A stretch of 42,904 nt of DNA, taken from positions 1-42,904 of the forward strand of contig JAIBCK010000021.1 of the NCBI GenBank assembly GCA_019694215.1, written 5' to 3'. The stretch comes from Thermoflexales bacterium (GTDB taxonomy: Bacteria > Chloroflexota > Anaerolineae > J036 > Brachytrichaceae). How positions within the stretch are numbered: the first letter of the stretch is position 1; each line of letters begins with the position of its first letter. Positions 34,196-42,904 of the stretch are shown one piece after another. The position numbers were made by a program, and so were the translations under genes. The notes beneath the pieces are model-generated. The model ran no database searches. It was not told the origin of the DNA and saw only the letters and a program-made list of their open reading frames with translations.

Positions 34196-35167
34196 ATGAA
34201 GCCCATCCTCGTTCTCGGGGCGACCGGTTTCATCGGCGGGCAGATCGCGCGCGCGGCTGCAGAAGCCGGGCATGACACCCGCGCCGGGCGGCGACGCGCG
34301 GACGCAGTGGGCGCAATTGGCGATGTTCCGGTGCACTGGGTGCGCGCGGACCTGGAGGACGAAGCTAGCCTGGTTGACGCCATGCGCGGGTGTGGGGTGG
34401 TGATTCATGCCGCCGCTTCGTATCCGCAGAACTTCAGGAAGGTGTCGGCCGAGGTCGCGCGTGCCGAGGCGGAAATCCGGCGTGTCCTGACCGCCGCCCG
34501 CACCGCCGGTGTCGAACGATTTATCTACACCAGCAGTCTGACCACAACGGCGGCCTGGACGGCCGGGCAGGGTCCGGGTCGTCTGGCCGATGAGCGCGAC
34601 TTCTACCAGCCGGGCAGCGCGCGCAGCGCCTATTACGAGGCCAAGCTCGCCATGGAGCGCATCGTGCTCGATGAGCGCGTCCTCCCGACGGTCGCGCTTT
34701 TGCCGACGGCGGTCTTTGGCCCCGGGGATATCAAGCCGACGACGGGGCTGGTGCTGTTGGAGGCCGCGCGCGGCCACTTCCCCGTGGTCTTTGACGCGAC
34801 ACTCGATGTCGTGGACGGCCGCGACGTGGCCGCCAGTCACCTCGCAGCGATCGAGCGCGGTGTGCCTGGTGAGCGCTACATCCTGGGTGGTCACGCCATC
34901 TCGGTGGCCGATTTGATCGGCCTGGCGTGTCGCATCGCGGGGCGCAAGCCACCGACGCTGCGCGTTTCACGCGGGCTGGTGGGTGGGGCCATCGGGCTTG
35001 CGGACGCGCTGCCATTTGTCTCACTGCCGGAAAACATCCGCATGTTTCGATTCTGGCAGGCGCTGAATTCTGAAAAGGCCGCGCGCGTCCTGGGCCATCG
35101 CGCGCGCCCGGTCGAGGACATGGTGCGCGATACGCTGGCCTGGTTTGCCACGCAGGGTCGCCGGTAG
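34196..35167 (+). CDS. NAD(P)-dependent extended SDR (epimerase/dihydroflavonol reductase-like)
   Basis: The 323-residue product has the extended-SDR cofactor motif VLGATGFIGGQIARA (about 6-20), with R residues after the second strand (RAGRRRAD) that favour NADP. It continues with ADLEDEASLVDAMRGCGVVIHAAA, the catalytic S in YTSSLTTTAAW and Y-x3-K in SAYYEAKLAMERI (about 142-154). The C-terminus (DVVDGRDVAASHLAAIERG; YILGGHAISVADLIGL) is typical of dihydroflavonol-4-reductase-like and hopanoid-associated HpnA proteins. The substrate is not clear. It begins three bases after the rhomboid stop. Its TAG stop forms part of the -10 (TAGAAT) of the next gene. Confidence 0.86.
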   Translation: MKPILVLGATGFIGGQIARAAAEAGHDTRAGRRRADAVGAIGDVPVHWVRADLEDEASLVDAMRGCGVVIHAAASYPQNFRKVSAEVARAEAEIRRVLTAARTAGVERFIYTSSLTTTAAWTAGQGPGRLADERDFYQPGSARSAYYEAKLAMERIVLDERVLPTVALLPTAVFGPGDIKPTTGLVLLEAARGHFPVVFDATLDVVDGRDVAASHLAAIERGVPGERYILGGHAISVADLIGLACRIAGRKPPTLRVSRGLVGGAIGLADALPFVSLPENIRMFRFWQALNSEKAARVLGHRARPVEDMVRDTLAWFATQGRR

Positions 35168-35179: not shown

Positions 35180-38119
35180 GTGAGTCGCCCCGCCTGGGTG
35201 GCCGCGCTGGCCGTCCTGCTTCTCTCGGCTTGCGCGACCCCGACCCCTGATCTGCCGCCGCCGACGCCAACGCCGGTTGAACCGATTGCGCCTACCGCGC
35301 TTCCGACCGCCAGCCCTACGCCCCGGCCCGCCGCGTCCTTCCTGCTGGTGTTGACCGCCCCCGTTGGCGTCGAGCATCGCGACCCGGCGACCGGCCTGAT
35401 CATGGATGCCGATGCGCGTGCGATGGCGCTGGGGTCGCTGAGTGCGGCGCTGCAGGCCATTGACGCGTATCCCGACCTGCCGCTCACGCTCTCGCTCTCA
35501 CCCAGCCTGCTGCGGCAACTGCGTGAAATGCTGGACGGCGACACCCCAGCCCGCGATGTGTTCTGGGAGTTGAGCGCGCGTCCCGCCACCGAGCTCACGG
35601 CGGACGACAAGCGCTTCATCATCCAGCACTTCTTCGACGGGCGCAGCCTCGAACGCATCGCGCGCGATGCGCGGGTCTTTCCCCGTTGGGCAGAGCTTCG
35701 TCGGCTGCGCGAGCAGGCGCTGGCGGGGGGCCGCGGCGAGGCCGGCCCGTCGCTCTCCATGGCGGACTGGCGCGACCTGCAGGTGCTCTACAACCTGAGC
35801 CTGTTCAGCCCGCGCGCGTTGCAGAGCCCGCTCCTGGCCGGCCTGGTCGCGCGTGGACGCAACTTCACGGAAGATGACAAACAAGTGCTGTTCGAGCAGA
35901 CGCGCCAGGCGCTGGTTGGCACCGCGGCGGCCTTGCGCCGAATGAGCACGGCGGGCAAGGTCAGCCTGGCAGTGTTGCCGTTGGTCGAGGCCACGGCCGC
36001 GGTGTGGCGTGGCGATGCCGCCTATCCGTATCCCGCTGACGCCGACCGCCTGCTGACCGCGGCTGCATCCGAGTATTCAACGTGGTTTGGGCGCAGGCCG
36101 GATGCCGTTGTGGTCGAGGCTGATCTCAGCGCGGCGCAGGCGTCAGGTCGGTTGCGCGCGGGTGTCGCCGGCGCCGTGCTCAGCGTGCCAAACACGACCG
36201 GGCGCGTCTCCGAGTTCGCCACCGATGCCGCGCTGGCGGCCCTGGCCGCCGGGTTGGGGGCGGATGCCAGCCTTGCCCTGCCGGTGACGCTGGGCGCGGA
36301 GGGGGATCTGGAGGCCGAGGCCTCGTTGCTCGACACGCTCTTTCGCCTGCCTGCGCGCGCGCAGGGGCGCTATCGCCTGATCGACGTGCGCGATGGGGGC
36401 CTGACCACTGCGCCGCTCACCCGCACGGTGGCGGCTCCTGTTGCGGAGGCTGCGCTCCCGGCTGCCACGGCGATGTTCAGCGAGGTCTTGCGCTCGCGCG
36501 CCTTCCTGGAGGACTATCTCGCCGGGCGGCGCATCGCCGGCATCGACACCGTCCGCGCAGCGCAGGACGCGCTGCTGGCGGCAACGGATGCCGGCCTCTA
36601 TCGCGTGCGCCCGGACATGACCGCCGTCGAGCAGCAGGCGCGTGTGCGCGATCACCTCGGGCAGGTCTTCGCGCTGCTCGGTGTGCCAACCCCGGACTAC
36701 ATCGATGCACCGCTCGCGGCGCCAACGCGGGCGGCCAACCTGCGCGCCATGCGCGGGCCGATCACGCCGACGCTGGAAGGTGACCCGGATGGCGCGGCCT
36801 GGGCGCAGGCCGCGCGGGTGACGCCCGCGCTGGCTTCGCTGACGCAGGCCGCAGATGTGTTTCAAGCGTTGTCCGTTGGCGTCGGAGGCCGGACACTGTA
36901 TGTGCGCCTGGAGCTTCGGCAACCCTGGGAGACGCTGGGTGAGGCCGATGGGGTCCCGACGCGCCTTGGCGTGTATCTGCAGCGCGGCCCGGCTGGTCCC
37001 GGCGGCGCGCCCGTGTCGACGTTCATGACCCGCATCGGCGGGGACGGTGAGCGCAAATTGCCGTTGGGTATCACGGCCACGCACCTGCTGGAATGGACGC
37101 CCGCCGATGGCGCGCTGGGCGCCTTCGTCTCGAACGGGGAGGGCGGCTGGACGCCCCTCGCGCTTCCCAATGCGCGGGTCGGGTTGAGCGAGCGGGTGAT
37201 CGAGATGGCGGTGCCGCTCGACGCGCTGGGCTTCACCAGCGACGATGCGCTTGCTGCGATGGCTGTGCTGCGGCGCGGGGCCTCGGAGGTGAATCGCCTC
37301 CCCGAGCAGGCCGTCCTCGCGCTCACGCTGCCGGACATCGGCACGCCCCGTCAGCTTGGCCGGATCGAGGATCCGGCCGGCGACGATCGTGGCCCGGGCA
37401 GCTATGTCTATCCCACGGATGCCTTGTTCGTGCCCGGCAGTTTCGACCTGCGCGCTGTGACCGTTCAGCGCGATGCGAACGATTTGGTTTTCGCCATCGA
37501 GCTCGGGGCGGCCATCCGCAATCCGTGGGGCTCGCCAATTGGCCTGTCACTGCAGACGATCGACCTCTACCTCGACCGCGACCCGGGCAAGGGCACGGGC
37601 GCGCGGGCGCTGTTCCCCGGCCGCAATGCGGCGCTTCCGGCAGGTTATGGCTGGGATGCCGCGGTTCGGGTCGACGGTTGGGAGCAAGCGTTGTATTTCC
37701 CGGGGGCCAACGGCGCACCGGTCGTGCGGCCGGTTCGGCCGCGCGTCGTGGTCGATCCGCGCGGGCGGGTGACCGTGCGCGTGCCACTCGCGGCGCTTCC
37801 GGAGGGCAATCCGGCCGAGTGGGCGATTGGGCTGGTGGTCCTCAGCCAGGAGGTCTACCCGAGCGAAGGCGTGTGGAACGTGCGCGATGTTGATCTGGTG
37901 GCCGGCCCGTGGCGGTTTGGCGGCGGGCCGGATGACCTCAACCATACCCGCATCATCGATGTGCTGCTGCCGGCCGGTGTGACGCCGGCGCAGTCTGCAT
38001 TGCTCGGCGGCTATCGGCCCGTCCGTGATCCGCGCGCCCGGGTCACCGTGGACGACTTGCCGGTAGTTCCCATGGTTACAATCGGTCTGGCGTCCACCCC
38101 CGCCACAGGAAAACCGTAA
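35180..38119 (+). CDS. Lipoprotein with degenerate GH57-like domain and glucodextranase C-terminal domain
   Basis: The 979-residue protein is exported and lipid-anchored: LLLSACA with C18 in the lipobox, then a PTPTP-rich linker to about residue 50. Residues 55-470 follow the GH57 alpha-glucan hydrolase pattern (DLPLTLSLSPSLLRQLREML, TADDKRFIIQHFFDG, DLQVLYNLSLFSP, GRNFTEDDKQVLFEQTRQAL). However, the family's starting H-x-H-Q-P motif is replaced by LTAPVGVEHRD and the P-x-E catalytic glutamate region reads RRPDAVVVEAD. Residues 720-960 match the glucodextranase C-terminal module (DPAGDDRGPGSYVYPTDALF, NPWGSPIGLSLQTIDLYLDRDP). It is probably a non-catalytic surface glycan-binding or assembly protein. 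Downstream DUF624-like gene overlaps as TAATG. Confidence 0.75.
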   Translation: MSRPAWVAALAVLLLSACATPTPDLPPPTPTPVEPIAPTALPTASPTPRPAASFLLVLTAPVGVEHRDPATGLIMDADARAMALGSLSAALQAIDAYPDLPLTLSLSPSLLRQLREMLDGDTPARDVFWELSARPATELTADDKRFIIQHFFDGRSLERIARDARVFPRWAELRRLREQALAGGRGEAGPSLSMADWRDLQVLYNLSLFSPRALQSPLLAGLVARGRNFTEDDKQVLFEQTRQALVGTAAALRRMSTAGKVSLAVLPLVEATAAVWRGDAAYPYPADADRLLTAAASEYSTWFGRRPDAVVVEADLSAAQASGRLRAGVAGAVLSVPNTTGRVSEFATDAALAALAAGLGADASLALPVTLGAEGDLEAEASLLDTLFRLPARAQGRYRLIDVRDGGLTTAPLTRTVAAPVAEAALPAATAMFSEVLRSRAFLEDYLAGRRIAGIDTVRAAQDALLAATDAGLYRVRPDMTAVEQQARVRDHLGQVFALLGVPTPDYIDAPLAAPTRAANLRAMRGPITPTLEGDPDGAAWAQAARVTPALASLTQAADVFQALSVGVGGRTLYVRLELRQPWETLGEADGVPTRLGVYLQRGPAGPGGAPVSTFMTRIGGDGERKLPLGITATHLLEWTPADGALGAFVSNGEGGWTPLALPNARVGLSERVIEMAVPLDALGFTSDDALAAMAVLRRGASEVNRLPEQAVLALTLPDIGTPRQLGRIEDPAGDDRGPGSYVYPTDALFVPGSFDLRAVTVQRDANDLVFAIELGAAIRNPWGSPIGLSLQTIDLYLDRDPGKGTGARALFPGRNAALPAGYGWDAAVRVDGWEQALYFPGANGAPVVRPVRPRVVVDPRGRVTVRVPLAALPEGNPAEWAIGLVVLSQEVYPSEGVWNVRDVDLVAGPWRFGGGPDDLNHTRIIDVLLPAGVTPAQSALLGGYRPVRDPRARVTVDDLPVVPMVTIGLASTPATGKP

Positions 38120-38898
38120 TGCTTGGATTTCGCATCTTCTTCAAGGGCATCCGAAACATCTGGGAGGAAATGCTCCCCCTCGGTGCGATGAGCTTTGTCA
38201 CGTTCCTCGCCCTGGCCCTTGCGCCCCTGCTGGTGTGGGCGGTCCTCCAGTTCCAGTTGCCGCTCGTGTTGCTCGTGCTCGCGGTCCCGCTGGCCCTGCC
38301 GGGGCCGCCGGCCTGGTACGCCTTGCACGTCGTGGCGCAGCGGGTGGCCAATGGCTTTGCCATCCGCTGGGATCACTTCTGGGAGGCCTTTCGTCCGTGG
38401 TTTGGCAAGGTGTGGGCGTACTCGGCCGTCTCGGCGGCGATTTTCGGGCTGGCCCTCTTCAATGGCGTGTTCTATGCCAACCAGTTCCCCGATGCCGGTT
38501 GGTCGACCTGGGCGGCGGGTGCGTGGCTGGCGGTGGGCGTGCTGTGGCTTGCGTTGCAGCTCTACGTGATCCCGTATTTCATCGAGCAGGAACAGAAGCG
38601 CTGGCGTACGGCGCTGCGCAATGCATTTCTCACCCTTGGCGCGCATCCGCTGATGACGTTGATCCTGCTGGTTCTGACCGTCATCGTGCTTGTCATTTCG
38701 ATCCTGATCGTGCCGCCGATGTTTGTGGTGTATGGGCCAATCTGGTGGGTGATGATGGGCACAACGGCCGTGACGCACGTCGTGGCCGAATTTCGCAAGG
38801 CTCAGCCCGCGACCGAGCCCGGCGTCGAAGTGACGCCCGAGGCCGCCGAGGACCCGGCGGCGTTGGTGGCGAAGTACAAGAACCGGGGCATCCAGTAG
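38119..38898 (+). CDS. DUF624/YesL-like integral membrane protein
   Basis: The 259-residue product has five or six TM helices (FVTFLALALAPLLVWAVLQF, LVLLVLAVPLALPGPPAWYAL, AAIFGLALFNGVFYA, AWLAVGVLWLALQLYVIPYF, LILLVLTVIVLVISILIVPP, MFVVYGPIWWVMMGT) and a hydrophilic acidic C-terminus. The short cytoplasmic start MLGFRIFFKGIRNIWEE and a central NPF-like loop (RWDHFWEAFRPWFGK) resemble DUF624/YesL proteins, often found next to carbohydrate ABC transporter or glycosidase genes. Its ATG overlaps the TAA of the lipoprotein gene as TAATG, which implies translational coupling and a joint role. Function is unknown. Confidence 0.72.
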   Translation: MLGFRIFFKGIRNIWEEMLPLGAMSFVTFLALALAPLLVWAVLQFQLPLVLLVLAVPLALPGPPAWYALHVVAQRVANGFAIRWDHFWEAFRPWFGKVWAYSAVSAAIFGLALFNGVFYANQFPDAGWSTWAAGAWLAVGVLWLALQLYVIPYFIEQEQKRWRTALRNAFLTLGAHPLMTLILLVLTVIVLVISILIVPPMFVVYGPIWWVMMGTTAVTHVVAEFRKAQPATEPGVEVTPEAAEDPAALVAKYKNRGIQ

Positions 38899-38952: not shown

Positions 38953-39687
38953 ATGGCCACAACCCCCATCGGTTCGATGCCCCGCGGGCGCGCCTTTCTG
39001 CTGGGTGTCCGCGACATCCTGCCGATCCTGATTGGCACCGCACCGTTTGGGATGATCTATGGCGCGTTGGCGCGCGATGCCGGGCTCAGCCCCGAGCTTG
39101 GGCAGGCCATCTCGAGCGTCATCTTCGCCGGATCTGCGCAGTTCCTCCTTGCCCAGCTCGTCAAGGCGGGTGCCCCCGGCTTCATCATCCTCGCTTCCGT
39201 CGCGGTGATCAACCTGCGACACGCGCTCTACTCGGCATCGCTTGCCCCGCACCTCAAGGATTTACGTTGGTCGGCGCGCCTCTTTCTAGCCTACCTGCTG
39301 ACCGATGAGGCCTACGCGGTGGCGATCAAGGCATATCGCGAGCCCGCCCCGAGCGGGCCAGATGCGCGGCCGTTCTACTTCGCCGGCACCGGGATCACGC
39401 TGTGGGTGGTGTGGCAGGCCACGACGGCGCTGGGGCTGTTCGTCTCGGCGCTGATCCCGGCCGGGTGGCAGCTCGACTTTGCCTTACCGTTGACCTTCAT
39501 CGCTATCGTTGTCCCGGCGCTGCGGGATCGCCCCAGCGTCGTTGCCGCGGCCGTCGGTGGGCTGCTCGCGATGCTGGCGGTGGGTCTGCCCTTCAAGCTC
39601 GGGCTGATCGTGGCGGCGGTGGCCGGCATCGCTGCCGGCACGCTGACCGAGCGCGTGCTCGCCCGCCACGGGGAGGCAGCCCGATGA
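38953..39687 (+). CDS. azlC: AzlC-family branched-chain amino acid exporter, large subunit
   Basis: AzlC and AzlD form a two-subunit exporter for branched-chain amino acids and analogues. The 244-residue product has the AzlC start (RAFLLGVRDILPILIGTAPFGMIYGALARDAGLS, about 13-46), SVIFAGSAQFLLAQLV, a conserved RHALYSASLAPHL (about 89-101), and seven or eight hydrophobic segments. ATG 38953 lies 54 bases after the DUF624-like gene with no ribosome site of note. azlD overlaps it by four bases (ATGA). Confidence 0.9.
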   Translation: MATTPIGSMPRGRAFLLGVRDILPILIGTAPFGMIYGALARDAGLSPELGQAISSVIFAGSAQFLLAQLVKAGAPGFIILASVAVINLRHALYSASLAPHLKDLRWSARLFLAYLLTDEAYAVAIKAYREPAPSGPDARPFYFAGTGITLWVVWQATTALGLFVSALIPAGWQLDFALPLTFIAIVVPALRDRPSVVAAAVGGLLAMLAVGLPFKLGLIVAAVAGIAAGTLTERVLARHGEAAR

Positions 39688-40004
39688 CGTCGCTGTGGAC
39701 GATTGCTCTCTTGGCCGGTCTGGCCACCTATCTCATCCGCCTGAGTGTGATTGCGCTCGCCAGCCGGATGGAGCTCCCCATCTGGCTTTTGCGCGTTTTG
39801 CGTTTTGTGCCGATGGCCGCCCTGACGGCCATCATCGTGCCCGAAGTGGCCTATCGTGATGGCGCGCTGGCCCTCGGGCCCGGCAACCCGCGCCTGCTGG
39901 CCGCGCTGGTTGCGACGCTCGTCGCCTGGAAGACGCGCAATGCGCTGTGGACGATCGGCCTTGGCATGGTGGCGCTGTGGCTGTTCAGCGCGCTGCTGGG
40001 CTAG
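39684..40004 (+). CDS. azlD: AzlD-family branched-chain amino acid exporter, small subunit
   Basis: The 106-residue product has four hydrophobic helices and the family features IALLAGLATYLIRLSVIAL (about 7-25), WLLRVLRFVPMAALTAIIVPE (about 34-54) and a final NALWTIGLGMVALWLFSALLG. It overlaps azlC by ATGA and is co-expressed with it. The stop TAG lies on the convergent MocR gene stop (CTAG 40001-40004), whose product may control transport-related genes. Confidence 0.9.
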   Translation: MTSLWTIALLAGLATYLIRLSVIALASRMELPIWLLRVLRFVPMAALTAIIVPEVAYRDGALALGPGNPRLLAALVATLVAWKTRNALWTIGLGMVALWLFSALLG

Positions 40005-41536
40005 TCCGTGGCAAGGTGCGCGCGCTCCAGGATTGGCGTCAGGCGCGCAGCGGCCTTGCGCAGGTCGCGCGGCGTGTAGGCGGCGTATCCGAGCGCCAGC
40101 CCGTCGCGGGAGAGTGGCCGCGAGGCAAAGGCCGAGAGTGGGATCACGGTCACGCCCTGCGCGGCAGCCTGCCGCGCGATGTGTTGCGCGTCGCAGCCCG
40201 GCTCGAGACGCCCGACGACATGCAGGCCGGCGTGCCCCGGCTGCATCTCGATCAACCCCGCCCAAAGGTGCTGCGCGATATCCAGCAGCGCTTCCTGACG
40301 CTCGAGATACAGTGTCCGCATGCGGCGCAGGTGCTGGTCGAAATGTCCTTCCTGGATGAAGTCCGCCAGCGCGGCCTGTTCGAGCGTGTTCACGTGGCGG
40401 TCCGAAACCGCGCGGGCGCTGCGGAAGGCATCCACCAGGTCGGGTGGGGCGACGACGAAGCCCAGGCGCAGGGCGGGTAGCAGCGACTTGCTGAACGTTC
40501 CGACGTAGATCACGCGGCGGTCCTCGTCGAGGCTTTGCAGCGAGGCCAGCGGTCGGCCGGAGTAGCGAAACTCGCAGTCGTAGTCGTCCTCGATCACCCA
40601 CACCCCCGTGCGGCGCGCCCAGTCGAGCAGGGCAAGGCGGCGGGCCAGGCTCATCGTCACGCCGGTGGGGTACTGATACGACGGCGCTACGAAGACGAGA
40701 CGAGGGAGTGTGTCGAGCACGCGCGCATCGGCAACCCGCAGGCCCTCACTGTCGATGGGGATCGGTGCGAGGCGCGCGCCGGCCTTGGTCAGGCCGGCCG
40801 ATGCGCCGAGATACACGGGATCCTCGATGCAGACGGTGTCGCCGGGGTTGATCAGCGTGTGCGCGATGACGTCGATGGCCTGTTGGGTGCCGCCGACGAC
40901 GATGACCTGCTCCGGATCGCAGCGCACTGCGCGGGCCTCGCGCAGCCGCTCGGCAATCGCCTTGCGCAACGGCCAGAAGCCAGCCGGATCGCCATACGAG
41001 AGGTCGTGGGCGGTCAGTTTGTGCCAGGCCTTCCCGGCCACCCGCGTCCAGGTCTCCATCGGGAAGGCATCCACCGCAGGCACGCCCGTGACGAAGGGTC
41101 GGATGCCATGTGACAGATCGTAGGGCGAATACACGCGCAGCTCGCTCGTCTCGCGCCCGCGCTGCGACAGGGCACGTGATGGGGTCGCCGGGGCAGAAGG
41201 AAGGATGGCGGGTTCGTTCGTTGGACCGGCATGCGTGGCCGGTTCAGCGTGCAGCAGCTCGTCGGGCAGGGCGCGCGATACATAGGTGCCGCTGCCGATG
41301 CGCCCTTCGAGGTACCCCTCGGCGAATAGCTGATCGAAGGCCAGGGCGACGGTGTTGCGCGAGAGTGAGAGCTCGTCGGCCAGCGCACGGGTCGAGGGCA
41401 GGCGCGCGCCCGGCGCAAAGCGGCCGATGAGGATGGCTTTTCGGATGGCGTCATACAGCTGGCGATACAGCGGGGTTGACGCGTCCGGGTCGAGCGGTGC
41501 CGCCAGGAGCGCGAGGTCCGGGGCGTGTTTGGCCAT
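40001..41536 (-). CDS. MocR/PdxR-family transcription factor (GntR HTH fused to aminotransferase domain)
   Basis: The 511-residue product has an N-terminal GntR winged helix (TPLYRQLYDAIRKAILIG, LPSTRALADELSLSRNTVALAFDQL, GYLEGRIGSGTYVS, about 20-88). A long fold-type I aminotransferase-like domain follows (GTQQAIDVIAHTLINPGDTV; PSYQYPTGVTMS; PLP lysine in YVGTFSKSLLPALRLGF at about residue 325). MocR proteins sense pyridoxal phosphate or amino acids and regulate PLP, GABA, taurine or amino-acid genes. The neighbouring exporter azlCD is convergent rather than divergent, so it is not the obvious target. ATG 41536 is set by minus-strand TAGAAT 6 bases upstream; a GTG just before is an alternative. 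Confidence 0.93.
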   Translation of the reverse strand: MAKHAPDLALLAAPLDPDASTPLYRQLYDAIRKAILIGRFAPGARLPSTRALADELSLSRNTVALAFDQLFAEGYLEGRIGSGTYVSRALPDELLHAEPATHAGPTNEPAILPSAPATPSRALSQRGRETSELRVYSPYDLSHGIRPFVTGVPAVDAFPMETWTRVAGKAWHKLTAHDLSYGDPAGFWPLRKAIAERLREARAVRCDPEQVIVVGGTQQAIDVIAHTLINPGDTVCIEDPVYLGASAGLTKAGARLAPIPIDSEGLRVADARVLDTLPRLVFVAPSYQYPTGVTMSLARRLALLDWARRTGVWVIEDDYDCEFRYSGRPLASLQSLDEDRRVIYVGTFSKSLLPALRLGFVVAPPDLVDAFRSARAVSDRHVNTLEQAALADFIQEGHFDQHLRRMRTLYLERQEALLDIAQHLWAGLIEMQPGHAGLHVVGRLEPGCDAQHIARQAAAQGVTVIPLSAFASRPLSRDGLALGYAAYTPRDLRKAAARLTPILERAHLATD

Positions 41537-41542
41537 CACCGC

Positions 41543-41936: not shown

Positions 41937-42135
41937 CGGGCCTGCATGGCCGAAGTCTGCGGTCTGCGGGCGCCTTCACAGAAGAACGAAGGGACGAAGG
42001 CGAACGAAGGGGGCCGGGGGGTGGGTTGGTCCCGACCACAGCCATGCAGACCACACCCACGCATGACGCGTCGCGAACCGTTGTCCAACGTTCGTACATT
42101 TTCGTCCAAGGCAAACGCGTACCCGGGCGCGGGGC

Positions 42136-42194
42136 GGGCGAAGCGATCGCCGCTTCGCGTCCCCTGCCTCGATCCCGTGGCGATCGCTTCGCCC
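42136..42194. repeat. Long inverted repeat in module B, first copy
   Basis: GGGCGAAGCGATCGCC (42136-42151) and its exact reverse complement (42179-42194) flank a 27-base loop. The right arm continues into TACGAAATG. Two GCGATCGC octamers lie in the arms. Confidence 0.9.
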
Positions 42195-42533
42195 CTACGA
42201 AATGGACTCCGCACAGCCTTCGGCCCTTCGTTCTTCTGTGAATGCAGCCTCAAGGCCATGCAGACCAGTCCAACGCATGACGGATGACGCATGACGGACC
42301 ATCGAAATGGGCTCCGCACAGCCTTCGGCCCTTCGTTCTTCTGTTCCCAACCCAGGCGTACGGCCGTGCGCGGGGTCGAGGAAAACAGAAGAACGAAGAA
42401 GCGAAGGCGAACGAAGGGGGCCGGGGGGTGGGTTGGTCCCGACCACAGCCATGCAGACCACACCCACGCATGAAGAACCGTCGTCGGCATGGTACTTCTG
42501 CGCGCGAGATGCATATCGGGCCGGGCGCGGGGC

Positions 42534-42592
42534 GGGCGAAGCGATCGCCGCTTCGCGTCCCCTGCCTCGATCCCGTGGCGATCGCTTCGCCC
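42534..42592. repeat. Long inverted repeat in module B, second copy
   Basis: The 16-bp arms at 42534-42549 and 42577-42592 and the 27-base loop are identical to those of the first copy. Confidence 0.9.
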
Positions 42593-42904
42593 CTACGAAA
42601 TGCACTCCGCACAGCCTTCGGTTGCCATCGGCCCTTCGTTCTTCTGTGAATGCAGCCTCAAGGCCATGCAGACCAGACCAACGCATAACGCATGACGGAC
42701 CATCGAAATGGGCTCCGCACAGCCTTCGGTTGCCTTCGGCTCTTCGTTCTTCTGTGGATGCGGCCTCAAGGCCATGCAGACCGGACCAACGCATGACGGA
42801 TGACGCATGACGGATGACGGACCATCGAATTGGGCTCCGCACAGCCTTCGGTTGCCTTCGGCTCTTCGTTCTTCTGTGAATGCGGCCTCAAGGCCATGCA
42901 GACC

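Follow-up and report, generated by a model that had tools for sequence, protein, structure and literature searches.

A Predicted Lipoprotein Descended from GH57 Amylopullulanases Has Lost the Catalytic Residues and Adjoins a DUF624-Like Membrane Protein Gene in a Thermoflexales Genome

Results

The gene pair and its relatives

The window analysed here is the whole 42,904-nucleotide stretch of contig JAIBCK010000021.1 (assembly GCA_019694215.1) of a Thermoflexales bacterium, and the locus in question is a pair of forward-strand genes encoding a predicted lipoprotein of 979 residues and a multi-pass membrane protein resembling the DUF624 family (Table 1). The lipoprotein descends from amylopullulanases of glycoside hydrolase family 57 (GH57) that carry a C-terminal Glucodextran_C module; it has lost the catalytic residues, its decay has been selective and its frame has been kept open over a long divergence. 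Both open reading frames, their overlap in TAATG, the lipobox and the Glucodextran_C module are present as the initial annotation had described them from the sequence. A signal peptide is followed by the lipobox cysteine, AlphaFold2 models a helix at residues 3–16, and a lipid anchor on Cys18 is predicted from the lipobox. The column of this cysteine is invariant across the 58 rows of the alignment made for structure prediction (57 of the 74 listed proteins plus the window protein), and a lipobox-like pattern is found in 74/82 rows of the motif alignment described below.

Table 1. Coordinates of the features of the two-gene locus within the window
Feature	Position	Strand	Basis or remark
GH57-derived lipoprotein gene	35180..38119	+	979 aa, GTG start
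Lipobox LSAC, residues 15–18 (Cys = C18)	35222..35233	+	sequence
N-terminal half of GH57 barrel with helical insertion, residues 50–309; conserved best at 101–240	35327..36106	+	profile match, kept columns, identity per 20 residues
Place of HQP motif, here VLTAPVGV, residues 57–64	35348..35371	+	alignment; HQP in 68/68 outside rows covering it
Catalytic-half remnant, residues 261–430; lacks the YAHP, Glu and LDGEN motifs and about 70–90 residues	35960..36469	+	alignment, no profile match at 310–436, low model confidence
C-terminal helices of GH57 module, residues 421–500	36440..36679	+	AlphaFold2 helices; profile match 430–515
CBM9/CBM74-like beta-sandwich, residues 513–720	36716..37339	+	fold match; 12/16 conserved columns kept
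Glucodextran_C module, residues 728–947	37361..38020	+	PF09985 170 bits; 50/58 conserved columns kept
TAATG, shared by the stop and start codons of the pair	38117..38121	+	sequence
DUF624-like multi-pass membrane protein gene	38119..38898	+	259 aa; relatives' PF04854 matches
Extra hydrophobic segment of membrane protein, residues 32–55	38212..38283	+	24 residues in g1

The sole Pfam match of the lipoprotein is to Glucodextran_C (PF09985, profile positions 3–218 of 228), by which it belongs to that family. No GH57 domain (PF03065) was detected by Pfam at E≤1 and no CBM domain was matched, and NCBIfam returned nothing for the lipoprotein or the downstream membrane protein. Judged by its family features, the catalytic residues and motifs described below among them, the window protein is GH57-derived and almost certainly no longer a GH57 enzyme.

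Matches, shorter paralogues among them, were found in 87 of the 149 related genomes searched. The 80 loci compared are the top-ranking ones among 536 relatives retrieved with patterns of the Glucodextran_C region, a sampling in which relatives without that module are under-represented; by title most are from Chloroflexota and a few from Spirochaetota or actinobacterial metagenome-assembled genomes (MAGs), and the nearest is a Thermoflexales MAG. In all listed long-form relatives other than the sister (the second member of the window's genus), the N-terminal part (about 1–310) and the C-terminal part (about 430–970) match separately and the stretch between them is unmatched. The motif alignment had 88 rows after L128 and L141 were dropped as shorter than 700 amino acids, and removal of six duplicates left 82: the window, nine others of its Chloroflexota family and 72 from outside that family. 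The 3/3 outside long forms that were scanned carry a full GH57 domain together with Glucodextran_C, one short paralogue has a GH57 domain alone (182 bits), and Anaerolineae lipoprotein homologues with Glucodextran_C have the same module order as the window protein. The closest solved structures by sequence are entries of the Aquifex aeolicus amylopullulanase, whose E256 and D352 correspond to the catalytic glutamate and aspartate of the relatives and are the residues mutated in several of its PDB entries, by their titles. In GH57 the glutamate is the nucleophile and the aspartate the proton donor, as set out in passages of PMC6037648.

Staged loss of the active site

Among the outside rows the catalytic glutamate is present in 71/71 covering the site and the aspartate in 72/72, and the HQP residues (68/68) and the histidine of YAHP (71/71) are equally constant in the rows covering them. 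In the other family rows the glutamate was lost in 9/9 (replaced by Gly in six, Ala in two and Asp in one), and so was the YAHP histidine. HQP is kept in 8/9, the sister being the row without it, and the aspartate column still reads D in 8/9, so that genera g7 and g8 of the family are only partly stripped. Motifs such as TFHQPLY, SPYAQP and LDGES are read in g7, and LLHQPLQ, LAYP and LDVAG in g8. In genus g1, comprising the window and its sister, HQP, YAHP, the Glu region, LDGEN and SDWFWW are all missing. Of these, HQP, the Glu region, LDGEN and SDWFWW are conserved sequence regions of GH57. The replacement stretches singled out by the initial annotation, LTAPVGVEHRD, RRPDAVVVEAD and LPLVEATAAVW, do lie at the aligned positions when the catalytic sites are compared. 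When the two are read ungapped from the FG..P stretch that they share, Ala occupies the nucleophile position in both the window (Ala314) and the sister; in the window E313 stands one residue before it, and the sister has no Glu near this position.

The loss extends to the barrel itself. From YAHP to SDWFWW the span is 203 residues in the window and 220 in the sister versus 284–294 in the 11 further rows for which it was counted, eight from the family and three from outside, and both g1 members are missing 60–90 residues of the barrel's catalytic half. An assembly error behind the shortening is ruled out by the sister, a separate MAG that is similarly short. The PF03065 score drops stepwise from 223–232 bits in the three intact long forms to 128–159 in g7 and 72–80 in g8, and the PF03065 search gave no match in either g1 genome (G000, G001). 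The same search disposed of a second intact GH57 in the window's own genome. GH13-type matches were found in 28/28 family genomes, seven of them in the genome of the window, and alpha-glucan enzymes are thus not gone from the family. Weak PF03065 matches also occur in g6–g8 genomes; the two examined (L155, L156; about 815 aa) resemble GH38 mannosidases by eye.

Domains and predicted structure

A profile built from the outside rows matches the window protein at 90–309 (125 bits) and one built from the family rows at 66–310 (145 bits) and 430–515 (44 bits); both resume after residue 430 and match nothing between. The AlphaFold2 model has a predicted local distance difference test (pLDDT) score of 78.8 overall. 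It is confident for most of 60–265, for 421–500 and for both beta-sandwiches, falls below 50 at 313–368 and 391–423, and models the catalytic half at about 30–40. Fold searches were done with Foldseek and pairwise superpositions with VIA-align. Residues 50–498 superpose on the A. aeolicus amylopullulanase with Z 22.8 (355 residues, 3.5 Å), and in the (beta/alpha)7 barrel with its helical bundle it is the N-terminal half and the end helices that are confident and match, residues 313–423 being of low confidence. The claim of the initial annotation that the fold-defining stretches of GH57 are retained therefore holds for the N-terminal half-barrel and the end helices and fails for the catalytic half, which is shortened, unconserved and poorly modelled.

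Residues 513–717 match the starch adherence protein Sas6/CBM74 with Z 14.1 and residues 516–719 match CBM9 with Z 11.0, both above the background of Z 7–8 given by antibody chains, which places this part in the CBM9/CBM74 fold. Residues 554–972 match glucodextranase with Z 28.4 over 306 residues at a root-mean-square deviation (rmsd) of 8.5 Å.

Unequal conservation of the modules

Of the columns with 90% identity or more outside the family, the window has kept very unequal shares: 38/74 in the N-terminal half-barrel, 22/92 in the catalytic half, 7/24 in the end helices, 12/16 in the CBM-like domain and 50/58 in Glucodextran_C. The module is present in 9/10 family rows, and its conserved positions are kept at 84–93% in these nine. 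Trees of the GH57 part (50–309) and the C-terminal part (525–960), made by a quick method from 36 hand-chosen rows of the 82, agree in setting the ten family rows apart by a branch with a Shimodaira-Hasegawa-like approximate likelihood ratio test value of 100. Between outside rows the GH57 part evolves more slowly than the C-terminal part (median N/C distance ratio 0.54, 325 pairs). Among family pairs it is faster, with ratios of 1.25 in g7 (10 pairs), 1.89 in g8 (3), 1.48 in g1 (1) and 2.12 between g1 and g7 (10), the family ratios spanning 1.25–2.28.

Protein identity between the window and its sister is 0.51 at 51–309, 0.25 at 310–430, 0.41 at 431–524, 0.46 at 525–720 and 0.61 at 725–960, the helical insertion at 101–240 being the best-conserved part of the GH57 remnant. 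Their third codon positions are identical at 0.39–0.50, where about 0.35 is calculated for chance at their G+C of 0.80–0.82. Since third positions are near saturation, the ratio of nonsynonymous to synonymous substitution rates (dN/dS) is unusable; a frame of nearly 1,000 codons that has stayed open over such a divergence is one that is being kept. Glucodextran_C was found in 9/28 family genomes, every one of them from g1, g7 or g8. Weak matches to the window protein occur in G002, G010, G016 and G019 (E 5e-5 to 6e-4), genomes without Glucodextran_C.

The adjoining membrane protein gene

The DUF624 label given to the downstream protein by the initial annotation is borne out by its relatives, 3/7 of those scanned passing the PF04854 cut-off; the window protein itself has no PF04854 match at E≤10 and cannot be assigned to the family directly. 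A structure model of it reached pLDDT 59, too poor to use. A homologue is present in 27/28 family genomes, and in the remaining one (G018) the contig stops 97 bases past the GH57-like match. Inside the family the two-gene pair is conserved, the membrane gene standing 3′ of the GH57-like gene and in the same orientation in 9/9 genomes showing both, but it also occurs without the lipoprotein in 18 of 28. In g2–g6, which lack Glucodextran_C, it adjoins genes for PriA, argininosuccinate synthase, a prenyltransferase and others (by eye). Outside the family both genes were seen on one contig in 0/16 genomes having both, judged by eye and with contig ends that could hide a case. The TAATG overlap is absent from the sister, where the same two genes are 116 bases apart.

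An extra, mostly hydrophobic segment of 24–39 residues is present in the membrane protein in 9/9 rows of g1, g7 and g8 and absent in 18/18 rows of g2–g6. Nucleophile loss, linkage to the DUF624-like gene and the extra segment all coincide in the same three genera. A single origin of the extra-segment form was not rejected (approximately unbiased test, p-AU 0.10 and 0.23), and the coincidence of segment and lipoprotein therefore counts as one event. From gene order and the shared segment it is plausible that the DUF624-like protein is a partner of the lipoprotein. G016 also has a second DUF624-like copy (L065 4155–4789), apparently broken into pieces of 139 and 72 aa, at a distance of about 7 kb from its intact gene.

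Flanking sequences

On the 5′ side the pair is preceded by genes for a guanylate kinase-like protein (assigned by eye), a rhomboid and an epimerase-like protein, and the same three genes in the same order precede the same pair on the sister contig. The epimerase-like gene, directly 5′ (34196–35167), resembles the hopanoid-associated epimerase HpnA but, at 210 bits, stays below the cut-off of 368; it is 75% identical in the sister. The region 3′ of the pair (38953–41539) holds AzlC and AzlD genes and, on the other strand, a frame resembling a MocR-type regulator by eye. Dense direct and inverted repeats (units of about 83–102 nucleotides, inverted arms of 24–46) fill the contig end at 41965–42904, and this terminal array probably halted assembly. 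Rfam had no match in the window.

Discussion

The reading that we favour with reasonable confidence is that of a non-catalytic, carbohydrate-binding surface lipoprotein whose frame is maintained and whose catalysis has been given up. The ancestor would have been an extracellular, lipid-anchored GH57 amylopullulanase, whose catalytic nucleophile was presumably lost in the common ancestor of g1, g7 and g8 of this one Chloroflexota family; the genus of the window would afterwards have shed the remaining active-site motifs and a large part of the barrel's catalytic half. What remains of the barrel, with its helices, may act as a spacer or docking platform. Carbohydrate binding by the C-terminal half is likely given its two binding-type domains, and the folds suggest that the CBM9/CBM74-like domain and Glucodextran_C may bind alpha-glucan or envelope polysaccharide. 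The adjoining DUF624-like protein is the likely membrane partner, as gene order and the extra segment common to the same genera suggest. That the protein is GH57-derived and catalytically dead, keeps Glucodextran_C and is encoded beside a DUF624-like gene, as first proposed from the sequence, is supported by the alignment, the structure prediction, the trees and the gene order. The sensing of envelope state that was suggested together with glycan binding is speculative.

Several observations weigh against this reading. When gaps are placed freely, E313 of the window aligns with the catalytic nucleophile and a D with the proton donor. The AlphaFold2 input alignment consisted mostly of intact enzymes and thereby favoured a GH57-like model. 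Unrelated antibody chains reach Z 7–8 with the CBM-like part, and a binding-domain fold is in any case no proof of binding. Finally, the g7 genome G022 (L069 4137–6572) has a nucleophile-less GH57 part without Glucodextran_C and with the membrane gene directly 3′, so that the module is dispensable there.

An alternative that we consider unlikely is that the lipoprotein has lost carbohydrate binding and serves the DUF624-like protein as scaffold or assembly partner, docking through its GH57 helices. The invariable adjacency in family genomes showing both genes, the extra segment in g1, g7 and g8 and the good conservation of the helical insertion would all suit such a role. However, the membrane gene is present in all 18 family genomes lacking the lipoprotein and, by eye, shares a contig with it in none of the 16 outside genomes having both, linkage and segment can be one inherited event, and it is Glucodextran_C, not the helices, that is conserved best. 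Somewhat less likely again is that the gene is on its way out, the whole protein being functionless under relaxed selection with a C-terminal part that is only slower to decay. Rapid change of the GH57 part within the family and its shortened, unconserved middle agree with this, as do the loss of Glucodextran_C in one g7 species and the 18/28 family genomes without Glucodextran_C or a long GH57-like gene, which indicate that loss is tolerated. Against it, neither g1 species has a broken frame despite third positions near saturation, first and second codon positions and protein identity are high outside 310–430, and most conserved positions of Glucodextran_C persist in the nine family rows with the module.

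A hydrolase still working with the shifted E313 and another acid is highly improbable: the glutamate directly precedes the nucleophile position and alignment with free gaps supplies both letters, which we take to be gap placement, but this pair, named at the outset as what would contradict a dead enzyme, is ruled out by the ungapped register with Ala in both g1 species, the sister without Glu there, the loss of HQP, YAHP, LDGEN and SDWFWW, and a shortened segment that is 25% identical between the g1 species and has a pLDDT of about 30–40.

The window protein shares ancestry with the GH57 amylopullulanase (A. aeolicus, PDB 9jlq and related entries), on which its residues 50–498 superpose, and differs from it in lacking the catalytic residues and motifs, 60–90 residues of the catalytic half and any Pfam GH57 match. 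Glucodextranase of Arthrobacter globiformis (PDB 1ug9) has the Pfam Glucodextran_C domain in common with it; at such an rmsd over both domains the arrangement may differ, and the glucodextranase catalytic domain is missing from the window protein. To Sas6/CBM74 and CBM9 there is likeness of fold only, at residues 513–720, with 15–16% and 8% identity. The membrane protein differs from DUF624 proteins (PF04854) in falling below detection and in its extra segment. GH57 homologues without catalytic residues are already known. Passages of PMC6037648 describe non-catalytic GH57 'like' groups (alpha-amylase-like and others), from which sequences lacking any of five conserved regions were excluded, and these passages give no 'like' group for plain amylopullulanases. 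Those groups kept the five regions, whereas the window protein has also lost half of the barrel. No published report of this GH57-derived lineage was found by the literature searches, no dead GH57 appearing by title and abstract start among the matches listed, and a search for DUF624 or YesL gave none about DUF624 by title among the matches listed.

The living genera show the successive stages of the change, from intact enzyme through loss of the nucleophile and erosion of the motifs to loss of half the barrel with the predicted binding modules kept, and the proposed passage from enzyme to binder is thereby testable stepwise within one lineage. It also exposes an annotation blind spot, the GH57 origin of the window protein being invisible to Pfam. 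DUF624 proteins gain a candidate partner. A more tentative idea, to which we give a low probability, is that a former starch hydrolase here serves a DUF624 membrane protein as its extracytoplasmic receptor, a lipoprotein whose binding could inform that protein about polysaccharide at the surface.

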